DNA of 64,000 nucleotides, from assembly GCF_021155765.1 (NCBI RefSeq), contig NC_060107.1:12262501-12326500 (forward strand), read 5' to 3'. Shown in pieces: positions 3,001-55,400 of this stretch (the stretch's first letter is position 1; each line of letters opens with the position of its first letter). The notes beneath the pieces were generated by a model. That model was not told the DNA's origin and made no database searches. It was given only the letters and a program-made list of their open reading frames with translations. This DNA is from Diprion similis. Its lineage: Eukaryota; Arthropoda; Insecta; Hymenoptera; Diprionidae. The position numbers were made by a program, and so were the translations under genes.

Positions 3001-6000
3001 GCAACGGATCAAAAGTTACAGACAAAAAACTGCAGATTTTCATCGTCATTTCTCTGCTGTCGGTCCTACGCTTTTTTTAATGTGTTTTTCGAGTTCCTGG
3101 GGTTTCAATTAGCCTAGAAACGCTCATACAAATCAATTCGGAGACCAGAAATTTTCGGCTTCAAAAATCGCAAAAAAAGTAAGGCTAACCCCTTTGGATT
3201 TTTGGCGAAAATTTCGACGACTTTGAAAAGTGCTGCAATTAATTCTTTAGGGCACTATTCCGACGTAATTTTGCGAGAGGAATCGATGAGGCGCAGTCCC
3301 AATACGCTGCGAGCAACGGATCAAAAGTTTCAGCCAAAAAACTGCAGATTTTCATCGTCATTTCTCTGCTGTTGGTCCTACGCTTCTTTTAATGTGTTTT
3401 TTGAGTTCCTGGGGTTCCAATTAGCCTAGAAACGCTCATACAAATCAATTCAGAGACCAGAAATTTTCGGCTCCAAAAATCGGAAAAAAAGTAAGGCTAA
3501 CCCCTTTGGATTTTAGGCGAAAATTTCGACGACTTTGAAAAGTGCTGCAATTAATTCTTTAGGGCACTATTCCGACGTAATTTTGCGAGAGAAATCGATT
3601 AGGCGCAGTCCCAATACGCTGCGAGCAACAGATCAAAAGTTACAGACAAAAAACTGCAGATTTTCATCGTCATTTCTCTGCTGTCGGTCCTACGCTTTTT
3701 TTAATGTGTTTTTTGAGTTCCTGGGGTTCCAATTAGCCTAGAAACGCTCATACAAATCAATTCGGAGCCCAGAAATTTTCGGCTCCAAAAATCGCAAAAA
3801 AAGTAAGGCTAACCCCTTTGTATTTTTGGCGAAAATTTCGACGACTTTGAAAAGTGCTGCAATTAATTCTGTAGGGCACTATTCCGACGCAATTTTGCGA
3901 GAGGAATCGATTAGGCGCAGTCCCAATACGCTGCGAGCAACAGATCAAAAGTTACAGCAGAAAAACTGCAGATTTTCATCGTCATTTCTCTGCTGTTGGT
4001 CCTACGCTTTTTTAAATGTGTTTTTTGAGTTCCTGGGGTTCCAATTAGCCTAGAAACGCTCATACAAATTAGTTCGGAGACCACAAATTTTCGGCTCCAA
4101 AAATCGGAAAAAAAGTAAGGCTAACCCCTTTGGATTTTTGGCGAAAATTTCGACGACTTTGAAAAGTGCTGCAAATAATTCTTCAGGGCACTATTCCGAC
4201 GTAATTTTGCGAGAGAAATCGATTAGGCGTAGTCCCAATACGCTGCGAGCAACGGATTAAAAGTTACAGACAAAAAACTGCAGATTTTCATCGTCATTTC
4301 TCTGCTGTCGGTCCTACGCTTTTTTTAATGTGTTTTTCGAGTTCCTGGGGTTCCAATTAGCCTAGAAACGCTCATACAAATCAATTCGGAGACCAGAAAT
4401 TTTCGGCTTCAAAAATCGCAAAAAAAGTAATGCTAACCCCTTTGGATTTTTGGCGAAAATTTCGACGACTTTGAAAAGTGCTGCAATTAATTCTTTAGGG
4501 CACTATTCCGACGTAATTTTGCGAGAGGAATCGATGAGGCGCAGTCCCAATACGCTGCGAGCAACGGATCAAAAGTTTCAGCCAAAAAACTGCAGATTTG
4601 CATCGTCATTTCTCTGCTGTTGGTCCTACGCTTTTTTTAATGTGTTTTTTGAGTTCCTGGGGTTCCAATTAGCCTAGAAACGCTCATACAAATCAATTCA
4701 GAGACCAGAAATTTTCGGCTTCAAAAATCGCAAAAAAAGTAAGGCTAACCCCTTTGGATTTTTAGCGAAAATTTCGACGACTTTGAAAAGTGCTGCAATT
4801 AATTCTTTAGGGCACTATTCCGACGTAATTTTGCGAGAGGAATCGATTAGGCGCAGTCCCAATACGCTGCGAGCAACAGATCAAAAGTTACAGCAGAAAG
4901 ACTGCAGATTTTCATCGTCATTTCTCTGCTGTTGGTCCTACGCTTTTTTTAATGTGTTTTTTGAGTTCCTGGGGTTCCAATTAGCCTAGAAACGCTCATA
5001 CAAATCAATTCGGAGCCCAGAAATTTTCGGCTCCAAAAATCGCAAAAAAAATAAGGCTAACCCCTTTGTATTTTTGGCGAAAATTTCGACGACTTTGAAA
5101 AGTGCTGCAATTAATTCTGTAGGGCACTATTCCGACGCAATTTTGCGAGAGGAATCGATTAGGCGCAGTCCCAATACGCTGCGAGCAACAGATCAAAAGT
5201 TACAGCAGAAAAACTGCAGATTTTCATCGTCATTTCTCTGCTGTTGGTCCTACGCTTTTTTGAATGTGTTTTTTGAGTTCCTGGGGTTCCAATTAGCCTA
5301 GAAACGCTCATACAAATTAATTCGGAGACCACAAATTTTCGGCTCCAAAAATCGGAAAAAAAGTAAGGCTAACCCCTTTGGATTTTTGGCGAAAATTTCG
5401 ACGACTTTGAAAAGTGCTGCAATTAATTCTTTAGGGCACTATTCCGACGTAATTTTGCGAGAGGAATCGATGAGGCGCAGTCCCAATACGCTGCGAGCAA
5501 CGGATCAAAAGTTTCAGCCAAAAAACTGCAGATTTGCATCGTCATTTCTCTGCTGTTGGTCCTACGCTTTTTTTAATGTGTTTTTTGAGTTCCTGGGGTT
5601 CCAATTAGCCTAGAAACGCTCATACAAATCAATTCAGAGACCAGAAATTTTCGGCTCCAAAAATCGGAAAAAAAGTAAGGCTAACCCCTTTGGATTTTTG
5701 GCGAAAATTTCGACGACTTTGAAAAGTGCTGCAAATAATTCTTTAGGGCACTATTCCGACGTAATTTTGCGAGAGAAATCGATTAGGCGCAGTCCCAATA
5801 CGCTGCGAGCAACGGATCAAAAGTTACAGACAAAAAACTGCAGATTTTCATCGTCATTTCTCTGCTGTCGGTCCTACGCTTTTTTTAATGTGTTTTTCGA
5901 GTTCCTGGGGTTCCAATTAGCCTAGAAACGCTCATACAAATCAATTCGGAGACCAGAAATTTTCGGCTTCAAAAATCGCAAAAAAAGTAAGGCTAACCCC

Positions 6001-6240
6001 TTTGGATTTTTGGCGAAAATTTCGACGACTTTGAAAAGTGCTGCAATTATATCTTTAGGGCACTATTCCGACGTAATTTTGCGAGAGAAATCGATTAGGC
6101 GCAGTCCCAATACGCTGCGAGCAACGGATCAAAAGTTACAGACAAAAAACTGCAGATTTTCATCGTCATTTCTCTGCTGTCGGTCCTACGCTTTTTTTAA
6201 TGTGTTTTTTGAGTTCCTGGGGTTCCAATTAGCCTAGAAA
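1..6240. repeat. Higher-order block of the satellite, 12-monomer (3744 bp) offset
   Basis: Monomers starting at 1 to 2185 match those starting at 3745 to 5929 one for one, including private variants: ttagttcgg and ggattaaaag in the second copy, gtaatgct in the third, ggatttttagcg in the fourth, aaaaaaaataagg in the fifth, and aattatatc in the eighth. The one difference I noticed is cttgaggg against ctttaggg in the third copy. The correspondence breaks in the ninth copy (2497 against 6241). So a segment of about 2.5 kb was duplicated at an offset of 3744 bp, probably by unequal exchange. Basis is direct comparison of diagnostic positions by eye; a full alignment was not made. Confidence 0.85.
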
Positions 6241-7800
6241 CGCTCATACAAATCAATTCGGAGACCAGAAATTTTCGGCTTCAAAAATCGCAAAAAAAGT
6301 AAGGCTAACCCCTTTGGATTTTTGGCGAAAATTTCGACGACTTTGAAAAGTGCTGCAATTAATTCTTTAGGGCACTATTCCGACGTAATTTTGCGAGAGA
6401 AATCGATTAGGCGCAGTCCCAATACGCTGCGAGCAACAGATCAAAAGTTACAGCAGAAAAACTGCAGATTTTCATCGTCATTTCTCTGCTGTTGGTCCTA
6501 CGCTTTTTTTAATGTGTTTTTTGAGTTCCTGGGGTTCCAATTAGCCTAGAAACGCTCATACAAATCAATTCGGAGCCCAGAAATTTTCGGCTCCAAAAAT
6601 CGCAAAAAAAGTAAGGCTAACCCCTTTGTATTTTTGGCGAAAATTTCGACGACTTTGAAAAGTGCTGCAATTAATTCTGTAGGGCACTATTCCGACGCAA
6701 TTTTGCGAGAGGAATCGATTAGGCGCAGTCCCAATACGCTGCGAGCAACAGATCAAAAGTTACAGCAGAAAAACTGCAGATTTTCATCGTCATTTCTCTG
6801 CTGTTGGTCCTACGCTTTTTTAAATGTGTTTTTTGAGTTCCTGGGGTTCCAATTAGCCTAGAAACGCTCATACAAATTAATTCGGAGACCACAAATTTTC
6901 GGCTCCAAAAATCGGAAAAAAAGTAAGGCTAACCCCTTTGGATTTTTGGCGAAAATATCGACGACTTTGAAAAGTGCTGCAATTAATTCTTTAGGGCACT
7001 ATTCCGACGTAATTTTGCGAGAGAAATCGATTAGGCGCAGTCCCAATACGCTGCGAGCAACGGATCAAAAGTTACAGACAAAAAACTGCAGATTTTCATC
7101 GTCATTTCTCTGCTGTCGGTCCTACGCTTTTTTTAATGTGTTTTTTGAGTTCCTGGGGTTCCAATTAGCCTAGAAACGCTCATACAAATCAATTCGGAGA
7201 CCAGAAATTTTCGGCTTCAAAAATCGCAAAAAAAGTAAGGCTAACCCCTTTGGATTTTTGGCGAAAATTTCGACGACTTTGAAAAGTGCTGCAATTAATT
7301 CTTTAGGGCACTATTCCGACGTAATTTTGCGAGAGGAATCGATTAGGCGCAGTCCCAATACGCTGCGAGCAACAGATCAAAAGTTACAGCAGAAAAACTG
7401 CAGATTTTCATCGTCATTTCTCTGCTGTTGGTCCTACGCTTTTTTTAATGTGTTTTTTGAGTTCCTGGGGTTCCAATTAGCCTAGAAACGCTCATACAAA
7501 TCAATTCGGAGCCCAGAAATTTTCGGCTCCAAAAATCGCAAAAAAAGTAAGGCTAACCCCTTTGTATTTTTGGCGAAAATTTCGACGACTTTGAAAAGTG
7601 CTGCAATTAATTCTGTAGGGCACTATTCCGACGCAATTTTGCGAGAGGAATCGATTAGGCGCAGTCCCAATACGCTGCGAGCAACAGATCAAAAGTTACA
7701 GCAGAAAATCTGCAGATTTTCATCGTCATTTCTCTGCTGTTGGTCCTACGCTTTTTTAAATGTGTTTTTTGAGTTCCTGGGGTTCCAATTAGCCTAGAAA

Positions 7801-10800
7801 CGCTCATACAAATTAATTCGGAGACCACAAATTTTCGGCTCCAAAAATCGGAAAAAAAGTAAGGCTAACCCCTTTGGATTTTTGGCGAAAATTTCGACGA
7901 CTTTGAAAAGTGCTGCAATTAATTCTTTAGGGCACTATTCCGACGTAATTTTGCGAGAGAAATCGATTAGGCGCAGTCCCAATACGCTGCGAGCAACGGA
8001 TCAAAAGTTACAGACAAAAAACTGCAGATTTTCATCGTCATTTCTCTGCTGTCGGTCCTACGCTTTTTTTAATGTGTTTTTCGAGTTCCTGGGGTTCCAA
8101 TTAGCCTAGAAACGCTCATACAAATCAATTCGGAGACCAGAAATTTTCGGCTTCAAAAATCGCAAAAAAAGTAAGGCTAACCCCTTTGGATTTTTGGCGA
8201 AAATTTCGACGACTTCGAAAAGTGCTGCAATTAATTCTTTAGGGCACTATTCCGACGTAATTTTGCGAGAGAAATCGATTAGGCGCAGTCCCAATACGCT
8301 GCGAGCAACGGATCAAAAGTTACAGACAAAAAACTGCAGATTTTTATCGTCATTTCTCTGCTGTCGGTCCTACGCTTTTTTTAATGTGTTTTTTGAGTTC
8401 CTGGGGTTCCAATTAGCCTAGAAACGCTCATACAAATCAATTCGGAGACCAGAAATTTTCGGCTTCAAAAATCGCAAAAAAAGTAAGGCTAACCCCTTTG
8501 GATTTTTGGCGAAAATTTCGACGACTTTGAAAAGTGCTGCAATTAATTCTTTAGGGCACTATTCCGACGTAATTTTGCGAGAGGAATCGATGAGGCGCAG
8601 TCACAATACGCTGCGAGCAACGGATCAAAAGTTACAGCCAAAAAACTGCAGATTTTCATCGTCAATTCTCTGCTGTTGGTCCTACGCTTTTTATAATGTG
8701 TTTTTTGAGTTCCTGGGGTTCCAATTAGCCTAGAAACGCTCATACAAATCAATTCGGAGACCAGAAATTTTCGGCTTCAAAAATCGCAAAAAAAGTAAGG
8801 CTAACCCCTTTGGATTTTTGGCGAAATCTTCGACGACTTTGAAAAGTGCTGCAATTAATTCTTTAGGGCACTATTCCGACGTAATTTTGCGAGAGGAATC
8901 GATGAGGCGCAGTCACAATACGCTGCGAGCAACGGATCAAAAGTTACAGCCAAAAAACTGCAGATTTTCATCGTCAATTCTCTGCTGTTGGTCCTACGCT
9001 TTTTTTAATGTGTTTTTTGAGTTCCTGGGGTTCCAATTAGCCTAGAAACGCTCATACAAATCAATTCGGATACCAGAAATTTTCGGCTTCAAAAATCGCA
9101 AAAAAAGTAAGGCTAACCCCTTTGGATTTTTGGCGAAAATTTCGACGACTTCGAAAAGTGCTGCAATGAATTCTTTAGGGCACTATTCCGACGTAATTTT
9201 GCGAGAGAAATCGATTAGGCGCAGTCCCAATACGCTGCGAGCAACGGATCAAAAGTTACAGACAAAAAACTGCAGATTTTCATCGTCATTTCTCTGCTGT
9301 TGGTCCTACGCTTTTTTAAATGTGTTTTTTGAGTTCCTGGGGTTCCAATTAGCCAAGAAACGCTCATACAAATCAATTCGAAGACCACAAATTTTCGGCT
9401 CCAAAAATCGGAAAAAAAGTGAGGCTAACCCCTTTGGATTTTTGGCGAAAATTTCGACGACTTTGAAAAGTGCTGCAATTAATTCTGTAGGGCACTATTC
9501 CGACGTAATTTTGCGAGAGAAATCGATTAGGCGCAGTCCCAATACGCTGCGAGCAACGGATCAAAAGTTACAGACAAAAAACTGCAGATTTTCATCGTCA
9601 TTTCTCTGCTGTCGGTCCTACGCTTTTTTTAATGTGTTTTTTGAGTTCCTGGGGTTCCAATTAGCCTAGAAACGCTCATACAAATCAATTCGGAGGCCAG
9701 AAATTTTCGGCTTCAAAAATCGCAAAAAAAGTAAGGCTAACCCCTTTGGATTTTTGGCGAAAATTTCGACGACTTTGAAAAGTGCTGCAATTAATTCTTT
9801 AGGGCACTATTCCGACGTAATTTTGCGAGAGAAATCGATTAGGCGCAGTCCCAATACGCTGCGAGCAACGGATCAAAAGTTACAGACAAAAAACTGCAGA
9901 TTTTCATCGTCATTTCTCTGCTGTCGGTCCTACGCTTTTTTTAATGTGTTTTTCGAGTTCCTGGGGTTCCAATTAGCCTAGAAACGCTCATACAAATCAA
10001 TTCGGAGACCAGAAATTTTCGGCTTCAAAAATCGCAAAAAAAGTAAGGCTAACCCCTTTGGATTTTTGGCGAAAATTTCGACGACTTCGAAAAGTGCTGC
10101 AATCAATTCTTTAGGGCACTATTCCGACGTAATTTTGCGAGAGAAATCGATTAGGCGCAGTCCCAATACGCTGCGAGCAACGGATCAAAAGTTACAGACA
10201 AAAAACTGCAGATTTTCATCGTCATTTCTCTGCTGTCGGTCCTACGCTTTTTTTAATGTGTTTTTTGAGTTCCTGGGGTTCCAATTAGCCTAGAAACGCT
10301 CATACAAATCAATTCGGAGACCAGAAATTTTCGGCTTCAAAAATCGCAAAAAAAGTAAGGCTAACCCCTTTGGATTTTTGGCGAAAATTTCGACGACTTT
10401 GAAAAGTGCTGCAATTAATTCTTTAGGGCACTATTCCGACGTAATTTTGCGAGAGGAATCGATGAGGCGCAGTCACAATACGCTGCGAGCAACGGATCAA
10501 AAGTTACAGCCAAAAAACTGCAGATTTTCATCGTCAATTCTCTGCTGTTGGTCCTACGCTTTTTATAATGTGTTTTTTGAGTTCCTGGGGTTCCAATTAG
10601 CCTAGAAACGCTCATACAAATCAATTTGGAGACCAGAAATTTTCGGCTTCAAAAATCGCAAAAAAAGTAAGGCTAACCCCTCTGGATTATTGGCGAAATC
10701 TTCGACGACTTTGAAAAGTGCTGCAATTAATTCTTTAGGGCACTATTCCGACGTAATTTTGCGAGAGGAATCGATGAGGCGCAGTCACAATACGCTGCGA

Positions 10801-12480
10801 GCAACGGATCAAAAGTTACAGCCAAAAAACTGCAGATTTTCATCGTCAATTCTCTGCTGTTGGTCCTACGCTTTTTTTAATGTGTTTTTCGAGTTCCTGG
10901 GGTTCCAATTAGCCTAGAAACGCTCATACAAATCAATTCGGAGACCAGAAATTTTCGGCTTCAAAAATCGCAAAAAAAGTAAGGCTAACCCCTTTGGATT
11001 TTTGGCGAAAATTTCGACGACTTCGAAAAGTGCTGCAATTAATTCTTTAGGGCACTATTCCGACGTAATTTTGCGAGAGAAATCGATTAGGCGCAGTCCC
11101 AATACGCTGCGAGCAACGGATCAAAAGTTACAGACAAAAAACTGCAGATTTTCATCGTCATTTCTCTGCTGTCGGTCCTACGCTTTTTTTAATGTGTTTT
11201 TTGAGTTCCTGGGGTTCCAATTAGCCTAGAAACGCTCATACAAATCAATTCGGAGACCAGAAATTTTCGGCTTCAAAAATCGCAAAAAAAGTAAGGCTAA
11301 CCCCTTTGGATTTTTGGCGAAAATTTCGACGACTTTGAAAAGTGCTGCAATTAATTCTTTAGGGCACTATTCCGACGTAATTTTGCGAGAGAAATCGATT
11401 AGGCGCAGTCCCAATACGCTGCGAGCAACGGATCAAAAGTTACAGACAAAAAACTGCAGATTTTCATCGTCATTTCTCTGCTGTCGGTCCTACGCTTTTT
11501 TTAATGTGTTTTTCGAGTTCCTGGGGTTCCAATTAGCCTAGAAACGCTCATACAAATCAATTCGGAGACCAGAAATTTTCGGCTTCAAAAATCGCAAAAA
11601 AAGTAAGGCTAACCCCTTTGGATTTTTGGCGAAAATTTCGACGACTTCGAAAAGTGCTGCAATCAATTCTTTAGGGCACTATTCCGACGTAATTTTGCGA
11701 GAGAAATCGATTAGGCGCAGTCCCAATACGCTGCGAGCAACGGATCAAAAGTTACAGACAAAAAACTGCAGATTTTCATCGTCATTTCTCTGCTGTCGGT
11801 CCTACGCTTTTTTTAATGTGTTTTTTGAGTTCCTGGGGTTCCAATTAGCCTAGAAACGCTCATACAAATCAATTCGGAGACCAGAAATTTTCGGCTTCAA
11901 AAATCGCAAAAAAAGTAAGGCTAACCCCTTTGGATTTTTGGCGAAAATTTCGACGACTTTGAAAAGTGCTGCAATTAATTCTTTAGGGCACTATTCCGAC
12001 GTAATTTTGCGAGAGGAATCGATGAGGCGCAGTCACAATACGCTGCGAGCAACGGATCAAAAGTTACAGCCAAAAAACTGCAGATTTTCATCGTCAATTC
12101 TCTGCTGTTGGTCCTACGCTTTTTATAATGTGTTTTTTGAGTTCCTGGGGTTCCAATTAGCCTAGAAACGCTCATACAAATCAATTCGGAGACCAGAAAT
12201 TTTCGGCTTCAAAAATCGCAAAAAAAGTAAGGCTAACCCCTTTGGATTTTTGGCGAAATCTTCGACGACTTTGAAAAGTGCTGCAATTAATTCTTTAGGG
12301 CACTATTCCGACGTAATTTTGCGAGAGGAATCGATGAGGCGCAGTCACAATACGCTGCGAGCAACGGATCAAAAGTTACAGCCAAAAAACTGCAGATTTT
12401 CATCGTCAATTCTCTGCTGTTGGTCCTACGCTTTTTTTAATGTGTTTTTTGAGTTCCTAGGGTTCCAATTAGCCTAGAAA
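7801..12480. repeat. Four-monomer (1248 bp) higher-order unit, three copies
   Basis: Four variant monomers recur in the same order at 7801-9048, 9673-10920 and 11233-12480. The first has a plain core with tttttcgag; the second has cgacttcgaaaag; the third has agtcacaat, tcaattctc and tttttataatg; the fourth has gcgaaatcttcg with agtcacaat. The spacers between them are one or two further monomers (9049-9672 and 10921-11232) that resemble the second type or a gtgagg type. This is a typical higher-order repeat produced by unequal crossing-over or rolling-circle amplification. Confidence 0.85.
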
Positions 12481-12792
12481 CGCTCATACAAATCAATTCG
12501 GAGACCAGAAATTTTCGGCTCCAAAAATCGGAAAAAAAGTAAATCTAACCCCTTTGGATTTTTGGCGAAAATTTCGACGACTTTGAAAAGTGCTGCAATT
12601 AATTCTGTAGGGCACTATTCCGACGTAATTTTGCGAGAGGAATCGATTAGGCGCAGTCCCAATACGCTGCGAGCAACAGATCAAAAGTTACAGCAGAAAA
12701 ACTGCAGATTTTCATCGTCATTTCTCTGCTGTTGGTCCTACGCTTTTTTAAATGTGTTTTTTGAGTTCCTGGGGTTCCAATTAGCCAAGAAA

Positions 12793-14664
12793 CGCTCATA
12801 CAAATCAATTCGAAGACCACAAATTTTCGGCTCCAAAAATCGGAAAAAAAGTGAGGCTAACCCCTTTGGATTTTTGGCGAAAATTTCGACGACTTTGAAA
12901 AGTGCTGCAATTAATTCTGTAGGGCACTATTCCGACGTAATTTTGCGAGAGGAATCGATTAGGCGCAGTCCCAATACGCTGCGAGCAACAGATCAAAAGT
13001 TACAGCAGAAGAACTGCAGATTTTCATCGTCATTTCTCTGCTGTTGGTCCTACGCTTTTTTAAATGTGTTTTTTGAGTTCCTGGGAATCCAATTAGCCAA
13101 GAAACGCTCATACAAATCAATTCGGAGACCAGAAATTTTCGGCTCCAAAAATCGGAAAAAAAGTAAGGCTAACCCCTTTGGATTTTTGGCGAAAATTTCG
13201 ACGACTTTGAAAAGTGCTGCAATTAATTCTGTAGGGCACTATTCCGACGTAATTTTGCGAGAGGAATCGATTAGGCGCAGTCCCAATACGCTGCGAGCAA
13301 CAGATCAAAAGTTACAGCAGAAAAACTGCAGATTTTCATCGTCATTTCTCTGCTGTTGGTCCTACGCTTTTTTAAATGTGTTTTTTGAGTTCCTGGGGTT
13401 CCAATTAGCCAAGAAACGCTCATACAAATCAATTCGGAGACCAGAAATTTTCGGCTCCAAAAATCGGAAAAAAAGTAAGGCTAACCCCTTTGGATTTTTG
13501 GCGAAAATTTCGACGACTTTGAAAAGTGCTGCAATTAATTCTTTATGGCACTATTCCGACGTAATTTTGCGAGAGGAATCGATGAGGCGCAGTCCCAATA
13601 CGCTGCGAGCAACGGATCAAAAGTTACAGCCAAAAAACTGCAGATTTTCATCGTCATTTCTCTGCTGTTGGTCCTACGCTTTTTTTTAATGTGTTTTTTG
13701 AGTTCCTGGGGTTCCAATTAGCCAAGAAACGCTCATACAAATCAATTCGAAGACCACAAATTTTCGGCTCCAAAAATCGGAAAAAAAGTGAGGCTAACCC
13801 CTTTGGATTTTTGGCGAAAATTTCGACGACTCTGAAAAGTGCTGCAATTAATTCTGTAGGGCACTATTCCGACGTAATTTTGCGAGAGGAATCGATTAGG
13901 CGCAGTCCCAATACGCTGCGAGCAACAGATCAAAAGTTACAGCAGAAGAACTGCAGATTTTCATCGTCATTTCTCTGCTGTTGGTCCTACGCTTTTTTAA
14001 ATGTGTTTTTTGAGTTCCTGGGAATCCAATTAGCCAAGAAACGCTCATACAAATCAATTCGGAGACAGAAATTTTCGGCTCCAAAAATCGGAAAAAAAGT
14101 AAGGCTAACCCCTTTGGATTTTTGGCGAAAATTTCGACGACTTTGAAAAGTGCTGCAATTAATTCTGTAGGGCACTATTCCGACGTAATTTTGCGAGAGG
14201 AATCGATTAGGCGCAGTCCCAATACGCTGCGAGCAACAGATCAAAAGTTACAGCAGAAAAACTGCAGATTTTCATCGTCATTTCTCTGCTGTTGGTCCTA
14301 CGCTTTTTTAAATGTGTTTTTTGAGTTCCTGGGGTTCCAATTAGCCAAGAAACGCTCATACAAATCAATTCGGAGACCAGAAATTTTCGGCTCCAAAAAT
14401 CGGAAAAAAAGTAAGGCTAACCCCTTTGGATTTTTGGCGAAAATTTCGACGACTTTGAAAAGTGCTGCAATTAATTCTTTATGGCACTATTCCGACGTAA
14501 TTTTGCGAGAGGAATCGATGAGGCGCAGTCCCAATACGCTGCGAGCAACGGATCAAAAGTTACAGCCAAAAAACTGCAGATTTTCATCGTCATTTCTCTG
14601 CTGTTGGTCCTACGCTTTTTTTAATGTGTTTTTTGAGTTCCTGGGGTTCCAATTAGCCTAGAAA
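12793..14664. repeat. Three-monomer (about 936 bp) higher-order unit, two copies, TAG-to-AAG variants
   Basis: Monomers at 12793, 13105 and 13417 are repeated at 13730, 14042 and 14353. Shared private variants are aattcgaag with cagaagaactg and ctgggaatcc in the first, and ctttatggc in the third. Copies from 12481 to 14042, plus that at 9049, carry ttagccaag instead of the usual ttagcctag. This removes the stop codon and lets one plus-strand frame run through monomer borders (12562-13689, 375 codons). One copy has an extra T (13417, 313 bp) and one lacks a C (14042, 311 bp). Confidence 0.85.
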
Positions 14665-15498
14665 CGCTCATACAAATCAATTCGGAGACCAGAAATTTTC
14701 GGCTTCAAAAATCGCAAAAAAAGTAAGGCTAACCCCTTTGGATTTTTGGCGCAAATTTCGACGACTCTGAAAAGTGCTGCAATTAATTCTTTATGGCACT
14801 ATTCCGACGTAATTTTGCGAGAGGAATCGATGAGGCGCAGTCCCAATACGCTGCGAGCAACGGATCAAAAGTTACAGCCAAAAAACTGCAGATTTTCATC
14901 GTCATTTCTCTGCTGTTGGTCCTACGCTTTTTTTAATGTGTTTTTCGAGTTCCTGGCGTTCCAATTAGCCTAGAAACGCTCATACAAATCAATTCGGAGA
15001 CCAGAAATTTTCGGCTCCAAAAATCGGAAAAAAAGTAAGGCTAACCCCTTTGGATTTTTGGCGAAAATTTCGACGACTTCGAAAAGTGCTGCAATTAATT
15101 CTTCAGGGCACTATTCCGACGTAATTTTGCGAGAGGAATCGATTAGGCGCAGTCCCAATACGCTGCGAGCAACGGATCAAAAGTTACAGACAAAAAACTG
15201 CAGATTTTCATCGTCATTTCTCTGCTGTTGGTCCTACGCTTTTTTCAATGTGTTTTTTGAGTTCCTGGGGTTTCAATTAGCCTAGAAACGCTCATACAAA
15301 TCAATTCGGAGCCCAGAAATTTTCGACTCCAAAAATCGCAAAAAAAGTAAGGCTAACCCCTTTGGTTTTTTGGCGAAAATTTCGACGACTTTGAAAAGTG
15401 CTGCAATTAATTCTTTAGGGCACTATTCCGACGTAATTTTGCGAGAGGAATCGATGAGGCGCAGTCCCAATACGCTGCGAGCAACGGATCAAAAGTTA

Positions 15499-21346: not shown

Positions 21347-22785
21347 TTACTTAGGCAAATGCTGGGCAACAGGCCGGAAGCCGTCCTTGTCAGCTACGTA
21401 GGTTACCACATAGGTTTGCCCATCGAGACCAACGAAGGCGAAGCTGCCCTTTACAACCAAACTCTCTTCGTCGGTTCCCTCGTTCACCAATTCAGCTGTT
21501 TCTTCTTTTTTCTGGCCATCGCTCAACTCGTAGCTGTATTTGTAACCACTGACTCCGATGTTGTTCTGTTCTTCCTGTTGCACGATGGTTACTTCGTTCG
21601 GACTGCCCTGCGGCGCCGACACTACCGTCCCCAAAATAGCTGCGAAGACGAGAATCTGAAAATCAAAATTGCCCCGTGCTGCACAATCAGGTGGTACCAT
21701 AACTACATTTCGGACCCTGGAATTCACAAGCGGTTACCTGGCGGTGATAAATGTGCCAGACTGACTGTCATGACCGCCGTGTTTAACCCTTTGAAGCAAA
21801 CATTTTTTTTTTTTTTTTTATCAATTTATTTTTATGTTTGAAATATTTCCGTGAAACTTCATATAAGTCCAGGGGTTTTTGACAGCACTGATAACGAATC
21901 CGACATTACATTCTGAAAATGTGAACAATTGTAGGCCGCCATATTGAATTCACCAGCTTGGATGAGGAATTTTGAAAATTTAATGTCAGATTCGTTATCA
22001 ATGCTCCCGAAAATCACATGGTATTGATTTTTAAGAAAAAATTCTGAAACGTTTCGTGAGAGATGTATTTCTCCGAAAAAATCACTTTTTGTTTGTAATT
22101 ATTTCTCTATAAAACAATAACAATAAATATTTGTTTTTGATGGATAGTTTTTTTATATTCCGTAACATCTCAGCTACCAACAAAATGCAAAAGACTCGAC
22201 AGAAATCCGTTAATTAGAGAATAAGTTGCCGAAAAGTAATGTAATTTAGGTGGTACTTCTCAGGGACCACCATGACGCAAAGGGTTAAAGTTTGAACCAA
22301 TTTTTCGGCCCATGTTTTACTTTAGATTGAATCAATGTCATAAAAAGAAGCTAAATTTTGTCAACTGAGCATTCTACTAAACGTCAGAAATTAGTTGAAC
22401 AATCAACAATCTCGTTCTTGAACACGGAATTCAACATAAGTTTGCCGTAGGTGGAATCGAGTTAGGTTATCATGTCAATTTTTTTCCAAAATGGTGGACG
22501 GTCTTTATCATGGCGGGAAATTTAAACCAGCCTCCAGAGACAGTAGAGTTTAAGCAATCGTCTTAGCATGAATAATATTCATTCTCCTGTATAAAAACGA
22601 TAGAATAGCGCCGATGTGATCTAACGTGTCACAAAATGTCGTCTACACTTCCACTGTGTTGAGTAATAATATAAATTTCGAGAGAGTGCTATAATCCTAT
22701 TATCCCAGAAGTGGGAATGAAGTTTGACTAAGGATAAGAATCCACCCCATTTCACGTAATCGATATCACCCACCGCTATCTTCAT
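21347..22785 (-). CDS. Larval-type cuticle protein, RR-1 chitin-binding (CPR family)
   Basis: Secreted structural protein of the cuticle; the RR-1 Rebers-Riddiford domain is known to bind chitin. Two exons on the minus strand: 22785-22774 (only four codons, MKIA) and 21655-21347, joined phase 0 across a 1118-nt intron, giving 106 aa. Residues 1-18 (MKIAILVFAAILGTVVSA) are a signal peptide. The mature protein has YKYSYELSDGQKKEE, a conserved ELVNEGTDEE segment, GSFAFVGLDGQTYVVTYVAD and DGFRP, which is the full RR-1 consensus. Splitting the signal peptide by an intron after a few codons is typical of this family and supports the tiny first exon. TATA box and initiator lie upstream (separate entry). 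The poly(A) signal AATAAA (minus strand) is at 21115-21120. Confidence 0.93.
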
Positions 22786-27617: not shown

Positions 27618-28389
27618 ATGAAGATGGTGCGTTCAGTAATCGTGATTCACACACATAAATATAACCAAAATCGAGCTCTTCATCATTCGGTTCAAGCTAC
27701 TTAGAACAGACTTCAAACTAATCATATTTTCACAAAAGCTACAAAAATCTGTAAAATCTTATCGACGATAAAATTTTTCGTTATTACAAACTGTTCAAAT
27801 TGATTCAATCAAGTAAAGATTATTTATACATTGATTTGACCGGTACTGCAGATGTATTCATTAGAGTAATTCATTTGAAGATACAAGAAGCTAATCAAAG
27901 TGATAAAATGAGCTATGAAGTTTAATTTGAAAAACACTCAGAGTCGATGAAAAAACGTGTTTGAATTATTTTATCTCCGTGTTCGACATTGGCAGAAAAT
28001 CGCTTTTTACTGTAGATCCATGAAACTCGAACGTGGTAGTAACAATTGGTAATAATTTGACCCATTGTGCGTTTCAGATAATCGCCTTCGCCGCCCTTGT
28101 GGCCGTCGCCATGAGCGCTTCAATCGATGCCGACCGCCTGGCTACGATCCAGGCTGAAGACCCCCAGGACAACACCGGGTTCTCAGACTACAAATATGGC
28201 TACCAACTATCGAACGGTGCGACCAGACAGGAGTCCGGCCAGCTGGTGAACCCCGGCAGCGAGGACGAGCACTACAATGTCGTTGGTAGCTACTCGTGGG
28301 TCGACCCGGTCACCAACGTGCAGTACGCCGTCAGATACACCGCTGACAAGGATGGTTTCCACCCCGAGGGCGACCATCTCCGAGCCTAA
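27618..28389 (+). CDS. Larval-type cuticle protein, RR-1 chitin-binding (CPR family)
   Basis: Secreted chitin-binding cuticle protein, paralogous to the gene at 21347-22785. Exon 1 (27618-27626) encodes only MKM; exon 2 is 28078-28389; the 451-nt intron is phase 0. The 106-aa product starts with a signal peptide (MKMIIAFAALVAVAMSA). It then has DNTGFSDYKYGYQLSNGATR, ESGQLVNPGSEDEHY, GSYSWVDPVTNVQYAVRY and TADKDGFHPEGDHLR, the complete RR-1 consensus. Codons in exon 2 are GC-richer than the surroundings, typical of a highly expressed gene. AATAAA lies at 28407-28412, only 18 nt past the stop. TATA and initiator upstream are clear. Confidence 0.94.
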
Positions 28390-32289: not shown

Positions 32290-32748
32290 TCTCTTTATAT
32301 ATAAAAATCCCGTGTCACGATGTTTGTTTACAATGAACTCCAAAAACCCTGAACCAATTTTGATGAAATTTCGCAAATGTATATTTCTTGGTTCAACTTG
32401 AGAGGCAGGATAGTTTGTATCCGGATAAGTGACTCTCAATATTTTTTATTGCAACTTTAAGGACTGTTCATAGGACTAAAGGGTAGTAAGTCATTTACAA
32501 GTTCCGTAAGTGTTTAATAGGTGGCGGTGTAAGTTAATCTGTCGAGTTCCATGAGTTTTTAATAGATGGCGGTGTGAGTCAATCTATTGACATCTGTATT
32601 AAGCATCTATCACCGCACTCAACATCCTGTTTTATCTAGTTTGTGTAAGTGTTTTTCATATAGTTGCATATCGGGGGCTTAGATTAGGTTCGGCTATAGG
32701 TTAGGTCATGAAGTTTGTACGAGGACGAAGCCGCTACGGGTCAGCTAA
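32290..32748 (+). mobile_element. Non-autonomous Helitron-like element, 459 bp
   Basis: The left end TCTCTTTATATATAAAAATC is followed by cccgtgtcacgatgtttgtt and ctgaaccaattttgatgaaa. The right end is acgaggacgaagccgc, tacgggtcag and CTAA. These are the hallmark ends of insect Helitrons: 5' TC, 3' CTRR, and the gacgaag-cgc subterminal block. The element lies between an A (32289) and a T (32749), as rolling-circle insertion requires. No Rep/helicase is present. Inside are two imperfect direct copies of a segment ending aatag(g/a)tggcggtgt (about 32494-32590). A shorter inverted copy (catctatcaccgcactcaac, about 32604-32623) follows. Confidence 0.75.
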
Positions 32749-33283
32749 TATACTATATATTTAATAGTATGTATAGCTTATCAAAATATAAATACACCCT
32801 AAAGGATCAAGTATTGATCGACAAAATCTGTTCTCTGCTTTATTGTCCCAGATAAGGTTACAGTCCTTGAATGTTGAGCAATCCAGTAAAATTTTGAGCT
32901 CACAAATGTTAATTTCGTCAATTTTCACGAAATATCTGATTAATCCCATTTAGTTTGGCATGACTTATCTTGTCTTGCGTCGATTCTGCAAAACAAAAGC
33001 GCGAATTTTTACGAAACTCAAACAGCTTATTGTTGGTTCATAAATAACAATAAATTGAATTCTGTAAGTACATTAGATATCAAAGTTAAAAATTGACTAC
33101 TGCAAAGTCACCGACTAAATGTTCGATTCTATCTTTGCAATTTGGCGTGAATTGTATCGAAATAAATAATAATAGTAAAAATCACAGTGTAGACCAGCTC
33201 AGTTACATAAACCTGCTACCATATTATCGCTAATCCAGGTTTGCAATATATTAGTTATATAATCGTATGGAGTCGCATTCGCC
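32749..33283. other. Probable 3' UTR and spacer of the PxDNIG-repeat gene
   Basis: Sequence downstream of the minus-strand stop at 33284. A minus-strand AATAAA at 32844-32839 would give a 3' UTR of about 440 nt. Nothing else seen. Confidence 0.4.
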
Positions 33284-35921
33284 TCATTGATATTGACAGT
33301 CGAACAATTCTCTGAACCGTTCACTTCTAACTACCGACAGATAGTAAGACAGCAAGAAATGCAAGTATAACAAAAGTACTGTAAGTTTACTGACAGTTTG
33401 AAGCGTTGCAGCTGGCTTTCCGGATAAATGCGATGGTGATTTTGGCGACGAGTCGATCTTCTTTACCGTTTGAGACTGTACAAAAGATTTCAAAGGATTA
33501 TGTTATAAAGTAATAAGATTAGAACAAATTCATGTGGATTACTTTCCTCGGACAGATGCTAATTAATGACACTAAAGGATTAATGTAACATATCATACCT
33601 TTACATTCTGAGATGCCAACGTTTTTGGCCCACTCGATCGACTCAGAGATTTTGCTGAAACGGAATGTACGTTTCACAGTATGCAATATTGTGGAAATAT
33701 TTCTGAAATATCAATATTTTGCAACGACAGCTTCTAGAATCATTGCATCAATATTGCTTTTTGTATATGCAAAAAAGTAAACACCAAAATGTTTCTACTG
33801 GGTACGTGCAACATTTTGGAAACGTTGCTGGAATGTTTCTGAAATATTTCGTAATGTGTCTGAAAGATTTTTAAATTTGCAAAGTTACGTTACTAAAATG
33901 TTTCAAGAATGTTACGCCCGAAATTTTTCAATGTTTGCCCAGTCGCGTTACTACGATGTTTCTGTAATATCGCACAAATTATGTCAAATATTGCGAAAAT
34001 TGCAAAATTACGTTGTTGCAATGTTTCTGCATTATAATATGCAGTTTGGTTCTAAAATCTGTTCCTCTGTAGTCAAGTTTCTGTTCTTACGCAAATGGCA
34101 ACAGGAGAAGCCGATATTATCCTTAGGAACGATTGGCCTCCGTGGTTGTGTTGGGTCGTGTTTTGGTCTTCGAATGTTGCTAATTCCGATGTCTGGCAAC
34201 TGAAAAATATTGCAAGTATCAGCTTTAACAGTAATTAAACAATAAGAGGACAAAAAGCATTCAATTGATAATTACTACTACAAAATGGGTATAACAGTGA
34301 AAACTTTCGTACCGTTGATTTGAACCGCGTTTTTCCACTTGGCACGATGCGTTTCTCAGATTCCCCTATAAACAATTATGAATTAACTGCCGATGTCTGT
34401 GTGTTCGATAAAAAAATCGGCGCCAAGCGCCATGAGATCGACATCATCAGAATTCTTTTCAAACTGTGAAAATTACCGAAAAAGTCCACATTGCCTTTAG
34501 TCATCATTGATTTAACTCCTTCGATTTTTAACCTTCCACCCGTGTTCGAACGACTTCGAATCTATGTAGTAACAAAATAACGACAATGAGTTAAAAATTA
34601 GCACTAGTAGTTACTGCAATTATGGCGTGTATATAAACGCAGTAAAATTTTCTAAAACCATGAATTTTCATGCGAAGAAAAATTCTTTTAAATGCAAGCT
34701 GTTCGAATTGTGCGAACTATTTTACGCCCAATAAGCAAAAGCGCACACACACCTTGTGTCGTGTCACCTGGCAGCCATCTTCGCCAGCTCGTAATCGGAC
34801 TTGTCTGATTTCCATGTCTTCTGTATGTTGATTATACGCGTGATTAATCTCTATTTCACCAAAACCAAGTTATTTAGACAAGAAATACTCAGTACAGAAG
34901 AAAACCATAAAACTTTTCTTCTATAAATAAAATAGTTACTGTTTATGTGTCGACAGGAATTTTCTAAATTGTCTTCGGGAGCATCACACCTGCCTCTTCC
35001 AGTTATCTTCGTACTCGTGAGTTGTACTTTTTGATTCTCTGGTGAAAGCGAAACGTCCTGTGCGAAGAAAACTCACATGTAAATCAAGAGTTAAATTGAA
35101 GATCGTGATGAAGACCCCAGAAAGAGCGATGGAAAATTGAGCATTCGATATTCTTATAAAAACAACCGTCTTACGTTAAATTTGACATAAGTTTCGTCCG
35201 ATGAGTCGTACTCCGATACTTCTGGAATATCCCGAAGCCTCATGCCTTCGACGCTGGGCAGACAGGCTATTCCAATGTTGTCTTTGGGTCCTGAATATCT
35301 TCGTCTTAGTCCCGTGAATTGCTCTGCATCTGTCAGTTCATTCCCTGAAATAGATATTTCTGAAAACTCGATCTTCAAAGTGCAGCCAACATCGCAGAAA
35401 CATTGCGACGATATTTTGACATCATACTTGCAGCATCGAAATTGTAGAAATATTGCAGCAATATTTCAATTTTCAAAATTCGATTAGAAAGAAAGTACAA
35501 TGCGTTTCGAATATTCGAAAAATTGCAAATTTACTTGGCTGCAATATTTCGGCAATATTTCAAATCTAGCAAAGATACGTAGTTACAATATTTGTCCAAT
35601 ATATCAAACTTTCCAAAATTCATGGCTGCAATGTTCCAAAAATATTTCCAACCCTGCAAAGTTACATAATTACTCCAATGTTTTGGCAATATTTTGTGCT
35701 TTGTGGGATATAAGGTGCGGATAAACAACATTTTTTCATCTAATATATAAAACTAACTTTATGTAGTATTCAGGGTAGTCGGTGAAGAGTAAAGGCATCT
35801 TACCTGCGGAAAACATACAGGAAATCCCAATATTGTCCCGGGGCTGGCAGATGCCACTTCTGAAGTGCACGCGTTTGGAACATTCGATGTCATTTGGCGG
35901 CGCCTTTGCATTTCTCACCAT
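33284..35921 (-). CDS. Unrecognised protein with three PxDNIG motifs and a hydrophobic tail
   Basis: I do not recognise this family. Minus-strand exons 35921-35804, 35344-35175, 34199-34091, 33654-33599 and 33475-33284 have GT-AG borders and matching phases (1, 0, 1, 0), giving 214 aa. The ATG context cacaATGG is good. Exons 1, 2 and 3 each carry one copy of a motif: QPRDNIGISC (26-35), GPKDNIGIAC (58-67), VPKDNIGFSCC (120-130). Residues 76-91 are acidic (RDIPEVSEYDSSDE). The last exon begins with a Ser/Lys/Pro-rich stretch and has a hydrophobic segment at about 182-200 (KLTVLLLYLHFLLSYYLSVV), then RSERFREL, so it may be membrane-anchored near the C-terminus. The stop lies at 33284-33286. The gene lies 370 bp downstream of the WD40 gene on the same strand. 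The phase-matched exons and repeated motif make a real gene likely; exons 4-5 are the less certain part. Confidence 0.7.
33690..34060. repeat. Imperfect tandem repeat of about 43-50 bp, dispersed family
   Basis: Successive degenerate copies of a unit like aaatttgcaaagttacgtt followed by gctgcaatgtttctgaaat lie within introns of the PxDNIG gene. The same unit recurs at about 35390-35710, 37315-37370, 47800-47960, 53200-53530 and 24060-24140. Copies are too diverged to count exactly by eye. Confidence 0.6.
35390..35710. repeat. Second block of the dispersed 43-50 bp repeat family
   Basis: Contains units such as ctagcaaagatacgtagtta, cttccaaaattcatggctgc-like and cctgcaaagttacataatta, each followed by caatatttg/caatgttcc. 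It lies in intron 1 of the PxDNIG gene and ends gcaatattttgtgctttgtg, an ending also seen near 37360. Confidence 0.6.
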
Positions 35922-36292
35922 TGTGCAAAGAACTTAGCGCTGCACTATCCGAATCTCACAAGGGACGACTTCTGCCACTTCGATGTTGGTGATCGATCAG
36001 GATGAGAAGATATTTTCTCTGGAAAATTCTCTTTGACAAAAGTTCTGAAATGAAGTGTGCCGATCATGGAAACAGAATTGACGTAAAGTTGTAACACTGA
36101 AGTAATGCGATTAATCGAAACATTTTGTGACAATTATATATGAGAGTGGCTAACCCTAAAATTTTTCGAATAAATCACGAATAATTATCACTCTGGTAAT
36201 GGTAATTTATTATAAAAAGAGAGCACCAACTTTCGTGCCAAATACTTAATGAAATACATTTACTATGCGGGTCAAAATATCATTTATCCTGA

Positions 36293-38280
36293 TCAACTGT
36301 AATCAGCAAGGCGTATCACAGATTCCATGCCACCGAAGACAATTGCCGACCGATTGCTGTCCAAGGCTACGATTGCTTTATTTACATGAAAGGATCCCAT
36401 TACCTGGATAAGAGTAAAAGAAAAATTGCCAAATACGGTATACTGAGGATAAGAAAACGAGCCACGAGTACTAACTTTTTTATCTTTAAGGCTGATAACT
36501 TCCACAGCACTGGTTCCGGAGCCACCGCATAAAACAGTGTCGCCGTATGGATCGCCGTCGAAGAATTGCACCGCGTAGAGAAACTCGCCGTCAAGTGTTG
36601 TCGGTCGGTTTTGGGGACTGATCGTCTCTATTAGCTTGCCGCTCGTCATATCCCAAAGCTGAAGACTGCCGCTGACGACCCAGGAGCCAGTTAGTATCCT
36701 AGAATCCTACTTAGCGAAATGGAAAACAGAAAAACATTACGGGTTCACTGAGCTGCAATAGTTTCGAAACTTACTCTGACATCTATGGCATCTCCGCAGA
36801 TATGAGGTCCTTTTATGACCCTAACAGATCCCAGGGTTGCTCTGGTGTCCCAAATCTAAGGGCCGATCAATGTGAAAATGATGCGTGATGAGTCGTAAAT
36901 TCATGCCTGAATGATTACCCTGACAGTGTCGTCCCAGCCACCGCTGATGAATACGTTTTGTTGCCCGTGGTGAAACCTCACAGCAAATACTCTCATTCTG
37001 TGATACTTGTTCACCTTGTCCTCTACCACGTCCGCCGCATTTTTTCTGTAGTTCGATATCATCTGGAAGAAATTTGAAGTTCGTAATTTGAGGTCCTTAG
37101 AAAATTGACATTAGAAATCACCTTTGCTGTTTCGATGTCGTATAGTCTTATCGCGGCATCCTTACCAGCTGATACTAAGTGTTCACCGGTAATATTCACG
37201 TCAATTGTGTTTATCTCGTTCTTTGGTTCTGGTGAAATAAATTGAAACGACGATATTGATGATTATCCCAATAGTTGTAATTATAGCTAGTCTGCAAACG
37301 CATGATACCCACAGAACACGAAATATTGCAGTAATATTAATGTTTCAGCAATATTGCGCGCTTTGTGATAACCCAAGGTTTCTCTAACCTACGATAAATC
37401 GAGAGAACTCGTAGGTGTTAGTAGTGCAGGTAAATATATTGCCGCAGGCACTGGACGCGTAAAATATTTCTGTTCGCGACGGATTAAATCGACAACACAT
37501 CACGGGGAATGATGACTCCATACTGCTACGAAGTGTCGCTTTAAGATCACCAGTGTCACCATTTCGGACCTGCGGACACAGAAAATAATGGGTAACTTTT
37601 TTGAAGACACGTCAGAATATTTGAATTCTTCAGGATGCTATCTGCATTCACGATCTAAACGACACATATAACCATTTAAACGATTACTACCTGGATACCA
37701 CCGGTGCCAAATGACGCCGCAAAGACTTCCCCGTTGGGAGAGAACCGTGCGCTGTAAAGGCCGTTGAAGGTTTCCGGAAACTTGACCTCGTTGGTTATCC
37801 GGCAGCGATTCTTCGATTGAGAAACACTGATTCTTGTCTTTTGGAGCCAGGTGTGTCGCCGCTGAAACTCAGCTGCGGTTATTCTCCGGTCGGTGTAGAA
37901 ATTGGGCTGCTTCACAATGGACACGCCCTTCGCTCGTTGTTTGTCCTATCCGAAATTGAAATCAACCCAGCATTATACACCTTGACATGCCGGAGAATGA
38001 AGAAAGTTAGTAAGTCACAATTATTACCTTAGCGTCGCTGGGCTCAGATAAACTCGTCATTTGACCCTTTGATGACTTCCGCGTCTGGACGGCTGAGGTT
38101 TATGAAATGAAAGAAAAGGTCATAGCCCGAGAAATCTGCACGCAGTGCCAACATAACCTGCTGACTGAATTCTATAACCGCTGAAAAAACCGATTGCATC
38201 ATACCTACTTCGGCAACTGGGATCTTGCCATCTTTATGGAGATGATGTTTGGGCTGTTTCCCGGTTAAAGCATCACCCAT
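36293..38280 (-). CDS. WD40-repeat protein, seven blades, family not recognised
   Basis: WD40 propellers act as scaffolds; the partner here is unknown. Nine minus-strand exons: 38280-38209, 38084-38028, 37945-37691, 37569-37389, 37228-37122, 37062-36919, 36855-36775, 36706-36476, 36403-36293. All borders are GT-AG and phases agree, giving 412 aa. The N-terminus (about 120 aa, with a Lys-rich start and RRITAAEFQRRHTWLQ) is followed by seven blade-like units. Blade ends include GIQVRNGDTG, LYDIETAK, VRIWDTR, LQLWDMTSG and VIRLADYS. Typical GH-to-WD spacing and SAGKDAAIRLYD and SGGWDDTVRIWD strands support the fold. Exon 2 (57 nt) is the least certain; an alternative start at MTSLSEPSDAK inside it is possible. 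It is head-to-head with the receptor gene (613 bp between ATGs). A minus-strand AATAAA lies at 36211-36206. Confidence 0.85.
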
Positions 38281-52433: not shown

Positions 52434-55400
52434 TTAAATATCACGTGGCTCATTCGGCGGCGGGAGTTTTTGCCAAGTCGGTTCAACGCCCCAAATCTCA
52501 CGAGCGTATTCTTCGATTGTTCTGTCCGACGAAAACTTGCCCGACGATGCAATATTATGAATTGCCATTTCCACCCACTTGCTCTCGTCCTGAAAATCGG
52601 CGACATTGTGAATTCAGTGTTTACAATGTGTATTCAAAGAAGTGTGATTGGTCTAAACTTGAAGATCGAAATAATTCGGCGATAGCGATTCAGAAACTTG
52701 AAAAATTGAGCATAATGGCGAAACAAGTTACTGGAACTACATATAAACTATTTCAGCAGATTGGTTTGCATGGATTAACAGTGCATTAATCTATAATAAA
52801 TTGAACGGACCTGGTAAACTTTGGAGACAAGATCCTGAGCTTTAATGTAGGCTTCATAATCGGCAAGAAGCAGGAACCTGTCCCACTTCAGCAAAACATC
52901 AGTGATATCCTTGAACTCGTCAGGATTACTTGGACTGAAGAATCCACCCTGAATCTGATCGATGCACTGCTTTGCTTCGGGTAATTTGTTGTAGTAGTCA
53001 TAAGCGTTGTAGCCCTTCCTCTTCAAGTCTTCAACCTCGTCAACTGTCATGCCGAAAATGAAGATATTCTCGTTGCCCATTTCTTCGGCCATCTCGACGT
53101 TCGCACCGTCCAAAGTTCCGATTGTTAAAGCACCATTCAACTGCAACCAAGTTTACATAATATTGAATGTGAATAACTGTAAAAAGCCATAATTTCGGGA
53201 TAATTCTGGAAAAGCAATTATTTTTCTTTCAAACGTCGTGAGATTACTGCGCTATTTCTGCAATATTTCAAATTTACAAAGTTACGTTGTTGAAACCTTA
53301 ACTGGAATATTTCAAGCTTTATTAAATGACGTTGCTGTGCCAAGTTTTCGCCATATTGTAGACTGCAAAATTTTTCTGCATCAATTTTTACTCAACTCTT
53401 CAAAGTCTTCAACAATTTTGTTACTGCAGTCGTGTCGCAATATTGGAAACGTAACAAAATTAGGTTGCTGCAATGTTTTCGGAATATTTAGAACCTCGCA
53501 AAATTACGTTACTGCAATGTTCCCGCAAAAATCTGTGCTGTACACACCATAAACTTCATGTTTCCAGTTCCCGAAGCCTCAGTGCCAGCCGTTGAGATTT
53601 GTTCGCTAAGGTCAGCAGCTGGAATAATCTGTTCAGCCAAAGTGACTCTGTAGTTTTCGAGGAAAATCACTTTGAGCTTATCACCAACGATCGGATCGTT
53701 GTTCACAACATTACCAACGCTGCAAATCAGCTTAATGATCTTCTTCGCCATGTGATAACCAGGGGCAGCTTTACCACCGATCATAATTGTCCGCGGCACA
53801 AATGGCGCCGATGGATCCCTCTTGATTCGATTGTAGAGGGTTATTATATGCAGGCAGTTCAACAGCTGCCTTTTGTACTCGTGAATACGTTTCACCTGAA
53901 CACAAATTGCAAATATTTTAAGATTCCGGCTTCTTACTCCAAGCATGAAAAACCATAATCGCCAACTTGGCTTACCTGAATATCAAATATCGAGGCTGGG
54001 TTAATTTTCACCCCATAATCCTTTTCCAGCAATTGTGCCAATCGCAGTTTGTTCTCCTGCTTGACCTTGTTTATGCTGCGCTGGAAGCCCGGATCCTTTG
54101 CCCACTGTTTGAGCTGTGCAAGTTGGTCCAAATGGACGGTCCATTCGTCTCCAATTTTCTGCAATAGCAATTAGCGTCGCATTGGAAGTAACGTTTAAAT
54201 CATAAGCATTCCTAAGACTGTCGTTATTCACAATCATCTACCTCGGCAATTAGATCAGACAACGTTGGATTGCACAAAAGCAGCCACCTTCTCGGAGTAA
54301 TACCGTTAGTTTTGTTCTGGAATTTCTCCGGTGTCATGGCGTAAAAGTCGCGGAACCTGAAAACAAAAGGGCAGTGAATGATGGCCGTCTGCCGGTGAAA
54401 TTAAAATTCCAACTCACACGACGTCTTTGATGATTTCCGAATGAATGCGAGCAACTCCATTGACAGCGTGGCTTCCAACAATGGAAAGATGAGCCATGTT
54501 GACGCGTTTCTCGCCGTCTTCTTCGATGAGAGACATGCGGCGAATGCGTTCCAAATCGCCGTTGAAGAAGGCCTTGACCTTCTCGAGATGCAAGAAGTTT
54601 ATGTGATAAATAATCTGCATGTGGCGAGGCAGAATGCTCTCCAACAAACTGGTTGGCCAACGTTCCAGGGCCTCTGGAAGAACAGTGTGATTCGTGTAGG
54701 CGCAGGTGCGAACGGTGATGTCCCATGCCTAGACGAAAAGAAAACGGAAATTCACGACCCGAATGCTTCACGGTGCTCCACTAAATCCAGGTTTTTTTTT
54801 TGTAAGAGACTTCACAGTCCAAAATATACCTTTTCCCACGGCAGACCCTCCACATCAAGCAAGACCCTCATCAGCTCGGGAATCGCCAGCGAAGGGTGAG
54901 TGTCGTTCAACTGGATCGCGACCTTATCCGGAAAGGCGTCAAAGTCGGTTCTATGATGATCTCGTGAGCCGAATTTGCTCGACTTGTAGCGACGAATAAT
55001 GTCTTGAAGTGTCGCGGCGCACATGAAGTACTCCTGTTTCAAACGCAGCTCCTTGCCTTCAAAGAAATTATCATTGGGGTACAAAACCCTCGAGATATTC
55101 TCCGCCAAGTTGCGATCGATCACCGCCTGGATGTAATCACCGTCGTTAACTGAAATTGGAACAAAAGCAATATAATAATGTAGGAAATTTGTCTAGAATA
55201 AAAACATCTAATATTGTCATAAAATGAGAGACGTAGCCTGCAATAATGATAAGACTATTTGTATTCAGTGAATGGACGACACTCTCATGACACAATAATC
55301 AGGGAACAGTGTAACCAAAAACTTTCGACAGCCATACGTGAGCTCGTCGACCCAAAAACGGCGAGGAGAAAATTAGTCACGAGGTGACAATTTCATATGC

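Follow-up and report, generated by a model that had tools for sequence, protein, structure and literature searches.

Why does the same nine-residue peptide recur three times on one strand, inside 1.75 kb, in a region of otherwise dissimilar sequence? In the 64-kb stretch of DNA analysed here (the window), the minus strand encodes PRDNIGISC, PKDNIGIAC and PKDNIGFSC, each in its own open segment (Table 1). Together the three copies give the consensus P-[KR]-D-N-I-G-[IF]-[SA]-C, 27 nt apiece, as the preliminary description had reported, and a search of the six frames of the whole window found P-x-D-N-[ILVM]-G nowhere else.

Table 1. Positions of the motif copies, candidate exons and other features in the window.
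Feature	Position	Strand	Remarks
Motif copy 1, PRDNIGISC	35817..35843	-	after an ATG, before a strong donor
Motif copy 2, PKDNIGIAC	35262..35288	-	ORF with acceptor upstream and donor downstream
Motif copy 3, PKDNIGFSC	34101..34127	-	ORF with acceptor upstream and donor downstream
Degenerate fourth copy, PEDNLENSC	34953..34979	-	tied fourth best of the window's six-frame 9-mers
Exon 1	35804..35921	-	ATG; motif copy 1 close to 3' end
Exon 2	35175..35344	-	phase 1 in, phase 0 out; top coding score of the five exons
Candidate alternative exon	34990..35057	-	acceptor 6.5, donor 6.2; inner acceptor at 35038
Candidate exon of 127-aa chain, KTWKSDKSDYELAKMAA	34768..34820	-	in gene-finder chains
Optional exon 4 of 260-aa model	34477..34561	-	in frame
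Optional exon 5 of 260-aa model	34313..34365	-	in frame
Third motif exon (exon 6)	34091..34199	-	acceptors 34199 (3.5) and 34192 (6.4); weak donor
Read-through to TAA past third motif exon	34032..34090	-	tail-less C terminus; added to exons 1, 2 and 6 it gives 151 aa
Exon 7	33599..33654	-	part of 214-aa model; outscored by a different open frame, KISESIEWAKNVGISECK, with the motif-like NVGISEC
Last exon (exon 8)	33284..33475	-	hydrophobic tail frame; a different frame stops at 33387
214-aa model	35921-35804, 35344-35175, 34199-34091, 33654-33599, 33475-33284	-	joined in phase
127-aa chain	35921-35804, 35057-34990, 34820-34768, 33654-33599, 33475-33387	-	preferred sampled chain
AATATTGC / GCAATATT tracts	33691-34060, 35371-35700, 37291-37360, 53231-53540		octamer counts
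Insect-cuticle-type chitin-binding ORF	21347-21733	-
Insect-cuticle-type chitin-binding ORF	28024-28389	+
WD40 gene	38280-36293	-	start of second exon approximate
Neurotransmitter-gated channel	near 40.4 kb	+	found via one of two peptides read by eye
Glycogen phosphorylase	59861-52811	-	ten exons traced, in frame

The frequency with which such a set arises by chance was measured by counting matching 9-mers on the same strand, 60 to 2600 bases apart, in window positions 16001-64000. Here, a match meant seven or more identities in nine, four residues shared in succession and no fewer than six different residues, a triple meant that all three pairs matched, and dinucleotide-preserving shuffles of the same positions served as the null. 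The real sequence contained one triple, the PxDNIG set, and none appeared in 2593 shuffles. Matching pairs by themselves mean little, because the shuffles average 5.3 per 48 kb and some of the 15 pairs in the real sequence overlap or sit within repeats. The motif triple is therefore present beyond chance, and it is unexplained.

Outside the motif, similarity between the motif exons was at background for both protein (P = 0.84, 0.14 and 0.80) and DNA (P = 0.66, 0.21 and 0.62), and the motif DNA itself is identical between copies at 18-20 of 27 positions, indicating that the triple is not a recent DNA repeat. It had been suggested that a short motif is held under selection amid unlike flanks. 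The triple and the background-level flanks agree with this proposal, whereas the substitution counts between copies (pN 0.12, pS 0.73-1.18) give no evidence of selection: the low pN relative to pS was rejected as such a sign, because copies picked for their amino-acid identity will show a low pN whatever their origin.

The candidate gene, phosphorylase and the WD40 gene all have introns with degenerate AATATTGC / GCAATATT repeats. Exact octamers number 20 in the window (7 and 13 by orientation, with approximately 2 expected each), 12 of which fall in four tracts, and an array of period 44 lies at 53420-53528 within the last of these. An origin of the motif as a fossil of this intronic repeat was not supported, although the exclusion is not clean: copies 1, 2 and 3 gave P values of 0.23, 0.23 and 0.82 against the intronic tracts and of 0.049, 0.049 and 0.94 against the AATATTGC repeat unit.

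We then asked what kind of gene could carry the three copies. Splice-site scores were derived from phosphorylase and WD40 introns, blended with the general consensus. The ATG of exon 1 has A at -3 and G at +4, with an in-frame TAA 12 bases upstream, and the exon ends at a donor (CAG/GTAAGA) scoring 7.5; donors this strong number 0.08 per kb of the minus strand. The tandem acceptors of the third motif exon stand seven bases apart, and its donor scores 1.11 versus 3.4-8.0 for 17 known donors. Use of the inner acceptor would change the phase, and the junction with the last base of the previous exon would then read D- or N-IGIS. Codon scores mirrored the composition of the training set, so frame-wise coding scores were used instead. 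By this measure the motif frame is clear in exon 2 (3.6 versus -12.9 and -15.4) and narrowly ahead in exon 1 (0.9 versus -0.7 and -4.2) and exon 6 (1.7 versus 1.0 and -15.7).

The preliminary description had proposed a five-exon gene of 214 aa. Its joining in phase was reproduced; its standing as the transcript is challenged by rival in-frame structures, some of them higher-scoring. Optional exons 4 and 5 (138 nt together) keep the frame and extend the product to 260 aa. In a simple exon-chain score, exons 1, 2 and 6 followed by read-through to 34032 (151 aa) reached 8.48, and the same chain with exons 4 and 5 added (197 aa) reached 5.6, compared with -1.66 for the 214-aa model, which is no better than no gene, and -4.5 for the 260-aa model; the read-through segment itself has a coding score of apparently -1.1. 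The motif copies start at residues 27, 59 and 121 of the 214- and 151-aa models (steps of 32 and 62) and at residues 27, 59 and 167 of the models with exons 4 and 5 (second step of 108). The first 132 residues contain 9.8% R and 9.1% P.

All six-frame 9-mers of the window were also ranked by their mean BLOSUM62 score against the three copies. PEDNLENSC, which shares its score with an unrelated peptide at 44738 on the plus strand, begins at 34979 on the minus strand, between motif copies 2 and 3; it belongs to the same ORF as the candidate alternative exon, in the first frame of that segment, but lies past its strong donor. When 13 candidate-exon segments were compared with shuffled peptide in a gapped motif test, PEDNLENSC gave P = 0.0005 (about 0.007 corrected for 13 tests) and NVGISEC, in another frame of exon 7, gave P = 0.0025 (about 0.03 after the same correction). 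Both peptides need gene structures different from the 214-aa model. A loose motif match in a cuticle protein, PQDNTGFSDYKYGY at 28162 on the plus strand, falls at the start of the chitin-binding domain and was taken as coincidence.

The motif triple probably sits in a gene. The likeliest explanation, and one that could equally well prove right or wrong, is a real spliced gene on the minus strand whose repeated motif would act as a multivalent docking peptide for one partner, since a short motif in several copies with unlike chain between them has the look of docking peptides. Such a gene would encode a small R- and P-rich, probably disordered protein with at least three copies of the nine-residue peptide. 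Every copy would dock onto the same surface of the partner, avidity would come from having several of them on one flexible chain, and the chain between copies would be free to change. The steps of 32 and 62 residues approximate one and two steps of 31, as might be expected if the partner offers its binding sites at regular intervals, for example along a filament; this idea depends on the gene model. The absence of the triple from the shuffles, the in-phase joining of exons 1, 2 and 6, the exon 1 donor, the degenerate copy and the unlike flanks speak for multivalent docking, as do the frame-wise scores of the motif exons; the lack of a family match in the libraries searched, the five-exon model's score of -1.7, the region's rank among the tiles and the lack of motif 3 in the sampled structures (both described below), and the resemblance of copies 1 and 2 to the intronic repeat unit speak against it. 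Docking motifs for PP1 follow the pattern RVxF, which KRVHF at residues 16-20 fits; shuffling the protein yields an RVxF-type match in 18% of cases, so this one says little.

The earlier statement that no family is known to carry the motif is consistent with null results in Pfam, NCBIfam, PHROGs, PDB and the viral and prokaryotic contigs. Pfam, searched up to E = 10, returned no family for the 214- and 260-aa models, a 68-aa segment or the 165-, 224-, 87- and 78-aa alternatives; NCBIfam had no match for the 214- and 165-aa models, PHROGs none for the 260-aa model, and PDB (up to E = 10) none for the 260- and 165-aa models or a profile of the three motifs. Searches of the contig collections with the 260-aa model and the 127-aa chain gave 3, 36, 40 and 1 pattern matches, with 0 confirmed by tblastn; these collections are viral and prokaryotic rather than insect genomes, and their negatives say little. 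Rfam, applied to 32500-36500 at gathering scores, had no match, and a literature search for the string PKDNIG found no paper, while further strings turned up a single irrelevant one. Thus, as judged from the libraries named, PxDNIG appears to belong to no described family.

It is also conceivable, if unlikely, that the motif exons are alternatives within a single gene, swapped or skipped to yield isoforms with one, two or three copies. After exon 1, the candidate exon at 34990..35057 enters in phase 1 and leaves in phase 0 exactly as exon 2 does, and so could substitute for it; similarly, 34820-34768 and 33654-33599 add up to 109 nt, the length of the third motif exon, and as a pair they match it in phase. 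A gene finder that samples structures preferred the 127-aa chain, which has motif copy 1 and omits motifs 2 and 3, and this chain was the most frequent sample at intron penalties of -9 and -11; at the mildest penalty the preferred chain also includes a shortened exon 2. The preferred chains contain the exon at 34990..35057, either full-length or begun at its inner acceptor. Among 600 structures sampled at each of three intron penalties, motif 1 was included in 98-99%, motif 2 in 85, 54 and 16%, and motif 3 in none. Neither the 214-aa nor the 260-aa model emerged from any of nine other gene-finder runs, and when all three motifs were forced the best paths took extra exons or other ends. The sampling without motif 3 and the preference for the 127-aa chain count against the five-exon gene originally proposed. 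Against an exchange of exons, each phase match has a one-in-three chance of arising, and the gene finder is crude: the region scored 20.1 against a tile median of 9.2, and at least 25 of 66 tiles scored higher, several of which contain known genes or run antisense to them, including two tiles antisense to phosphorylase (44.7 and 44.2).

A further alternative, which we regard as doubtful, is a protein held by a C-terminal membrane anchor in its last exon, with the motif-bearing part on one side. The five exons are in phase, and exon 8 encodes a 19-residue stretch, LTVLLLYLHFLLSYYLSVV, with a mean Kyte-Doolittle hydropathy of 1.92, followed by a short charged end. In addition, an AATAAA lies 440 bases beyond the exon 8 stop, and none of five signals tried was found within 700 bases past the read-through stop; this placement favours a 3' end beyond exon 8 and does not decide the choice of frame. 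However, hydropathy as high was observed in 112 of 2065 shuffled ORFs of at least 60 aa (5.4%) and in 19 of 218 real ORFs of that size. Of the five exons, 7 (-3.3 over 18 codons) and 8 (-8.0 over 63 codons) rank last in coding score. A different frame does better in each, at 1.6 versus -3.3 for exon 7 and 2.0 versus -0.7 for the opening 27 codons of exon 8, and reading through after motif 3 improves the chain by about 10 units (8.48 versus -1.66). A single C-terminal hydrophobic segment of about 20 residues, as in tail-anchored membrane proteins, exists in just one reading of the last exons. The likely membrane segment noted at the outset is thus weakly supported; a hydrophobic C terminus is unproven and perhaps absent.

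The step lengths recall repeats in known microtubule proteins, among them inner proteins, whose place is the lumen of ciliary microtubules. Microtubule inner proteins with GFG repeats (EFHB, CFAP77) have approximately 31 residues per repeat (PMC10973386), and the Mn motifs of SAXO proteins, spaced at 8 nm, form short helices in which hydrophilic and aromatic positions are conserved (PMC9564825; PMC10973386). The PYG-repeat signature is Pro-Tyr-Gly and the SNYG-module signature is [ST]-N-x-x-[ILVY]-G (PMC10973386). EFHB and CFAP77 resemble the candidate protein in having a short signature repeated in one chain, with steps of 32 and 62 residues here (214- and 151-aa models) versus approximately 31, and the Mn-motif proteins SAXO1, SAXO2 and MAP6 resemble it in having multiple short-motif copies in one elongated chain.

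By analogy with these proteins, the candidate could bind the microtubule lattice along a protofilament, its motif contacting successive tubulin dimers; we consider this quite improbable, even with step lengths near one and two GFG repeats and the 8 nm Mn spacing to commend it (PMC10973386; PMC9564825). The GFG, PYG and SNYG signatures are absent from all five gene models, Pfam and PDB returned no match, and the second step grows to 108 when exons 4 and 5 are included. In contrast to the Mn motif, PxDNIG contains Pro and Gly, and its sole aromatic residue is the Phe of copy 3; the absence of any Pfam family for seven proteins and segments (up to E = 10) is a weak negative on membership among the Mn/SAXO proteins, the motif being so short. 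More of a long shot still is a new repeat class in which PxDNIG would read the microtubule lattice or another periodic partner at approximately 31 residues per copy. The protein would then be a sperm or ciliary component restricted to a lineage of insects, and its copy number would be set via alternative splicing of the motif exons.

Finally, that three unrelated open segments spell similar peptides by chance is very improbable: shuffled sequence does produce similar 9-mer pairs, the motif exons have coding scores close to zero, and usable splice sites flank, on both sides and within the same ORF, 14% of 12140 random open 27-nt stretches, but no triple arose in the shuffles and the three motif exons can be joined in phase.

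The neighbouring genes in Table 1 mark the window as arthropod DNA, in all likelihood insect. The remainder of the window contains other features beside those listed in Table 1. The tenth phosphorylase exon, at which the model ends, is without a stop codon. A satellite array at 1-15498 is composed of 312-bp units (49.7 copies, 96% matches) and contains long open frames that run across several units, for example 403 aa at 12478-13689 on the plus strand; a literature search on 312 bp satellite DNA in Hymenoptera found no paper. A shorter tandem repeat, 45 bp in 1.9 copies, is located at 32500-32585.

Should the locus prove to be an ordinary orphan gene, it would be one among many. If the gene is real, it carries a repeat motif described in no library searched here, within a protein whose other parts are mutually unlike, and identifying what binds it would put a name to a new docking peptide.
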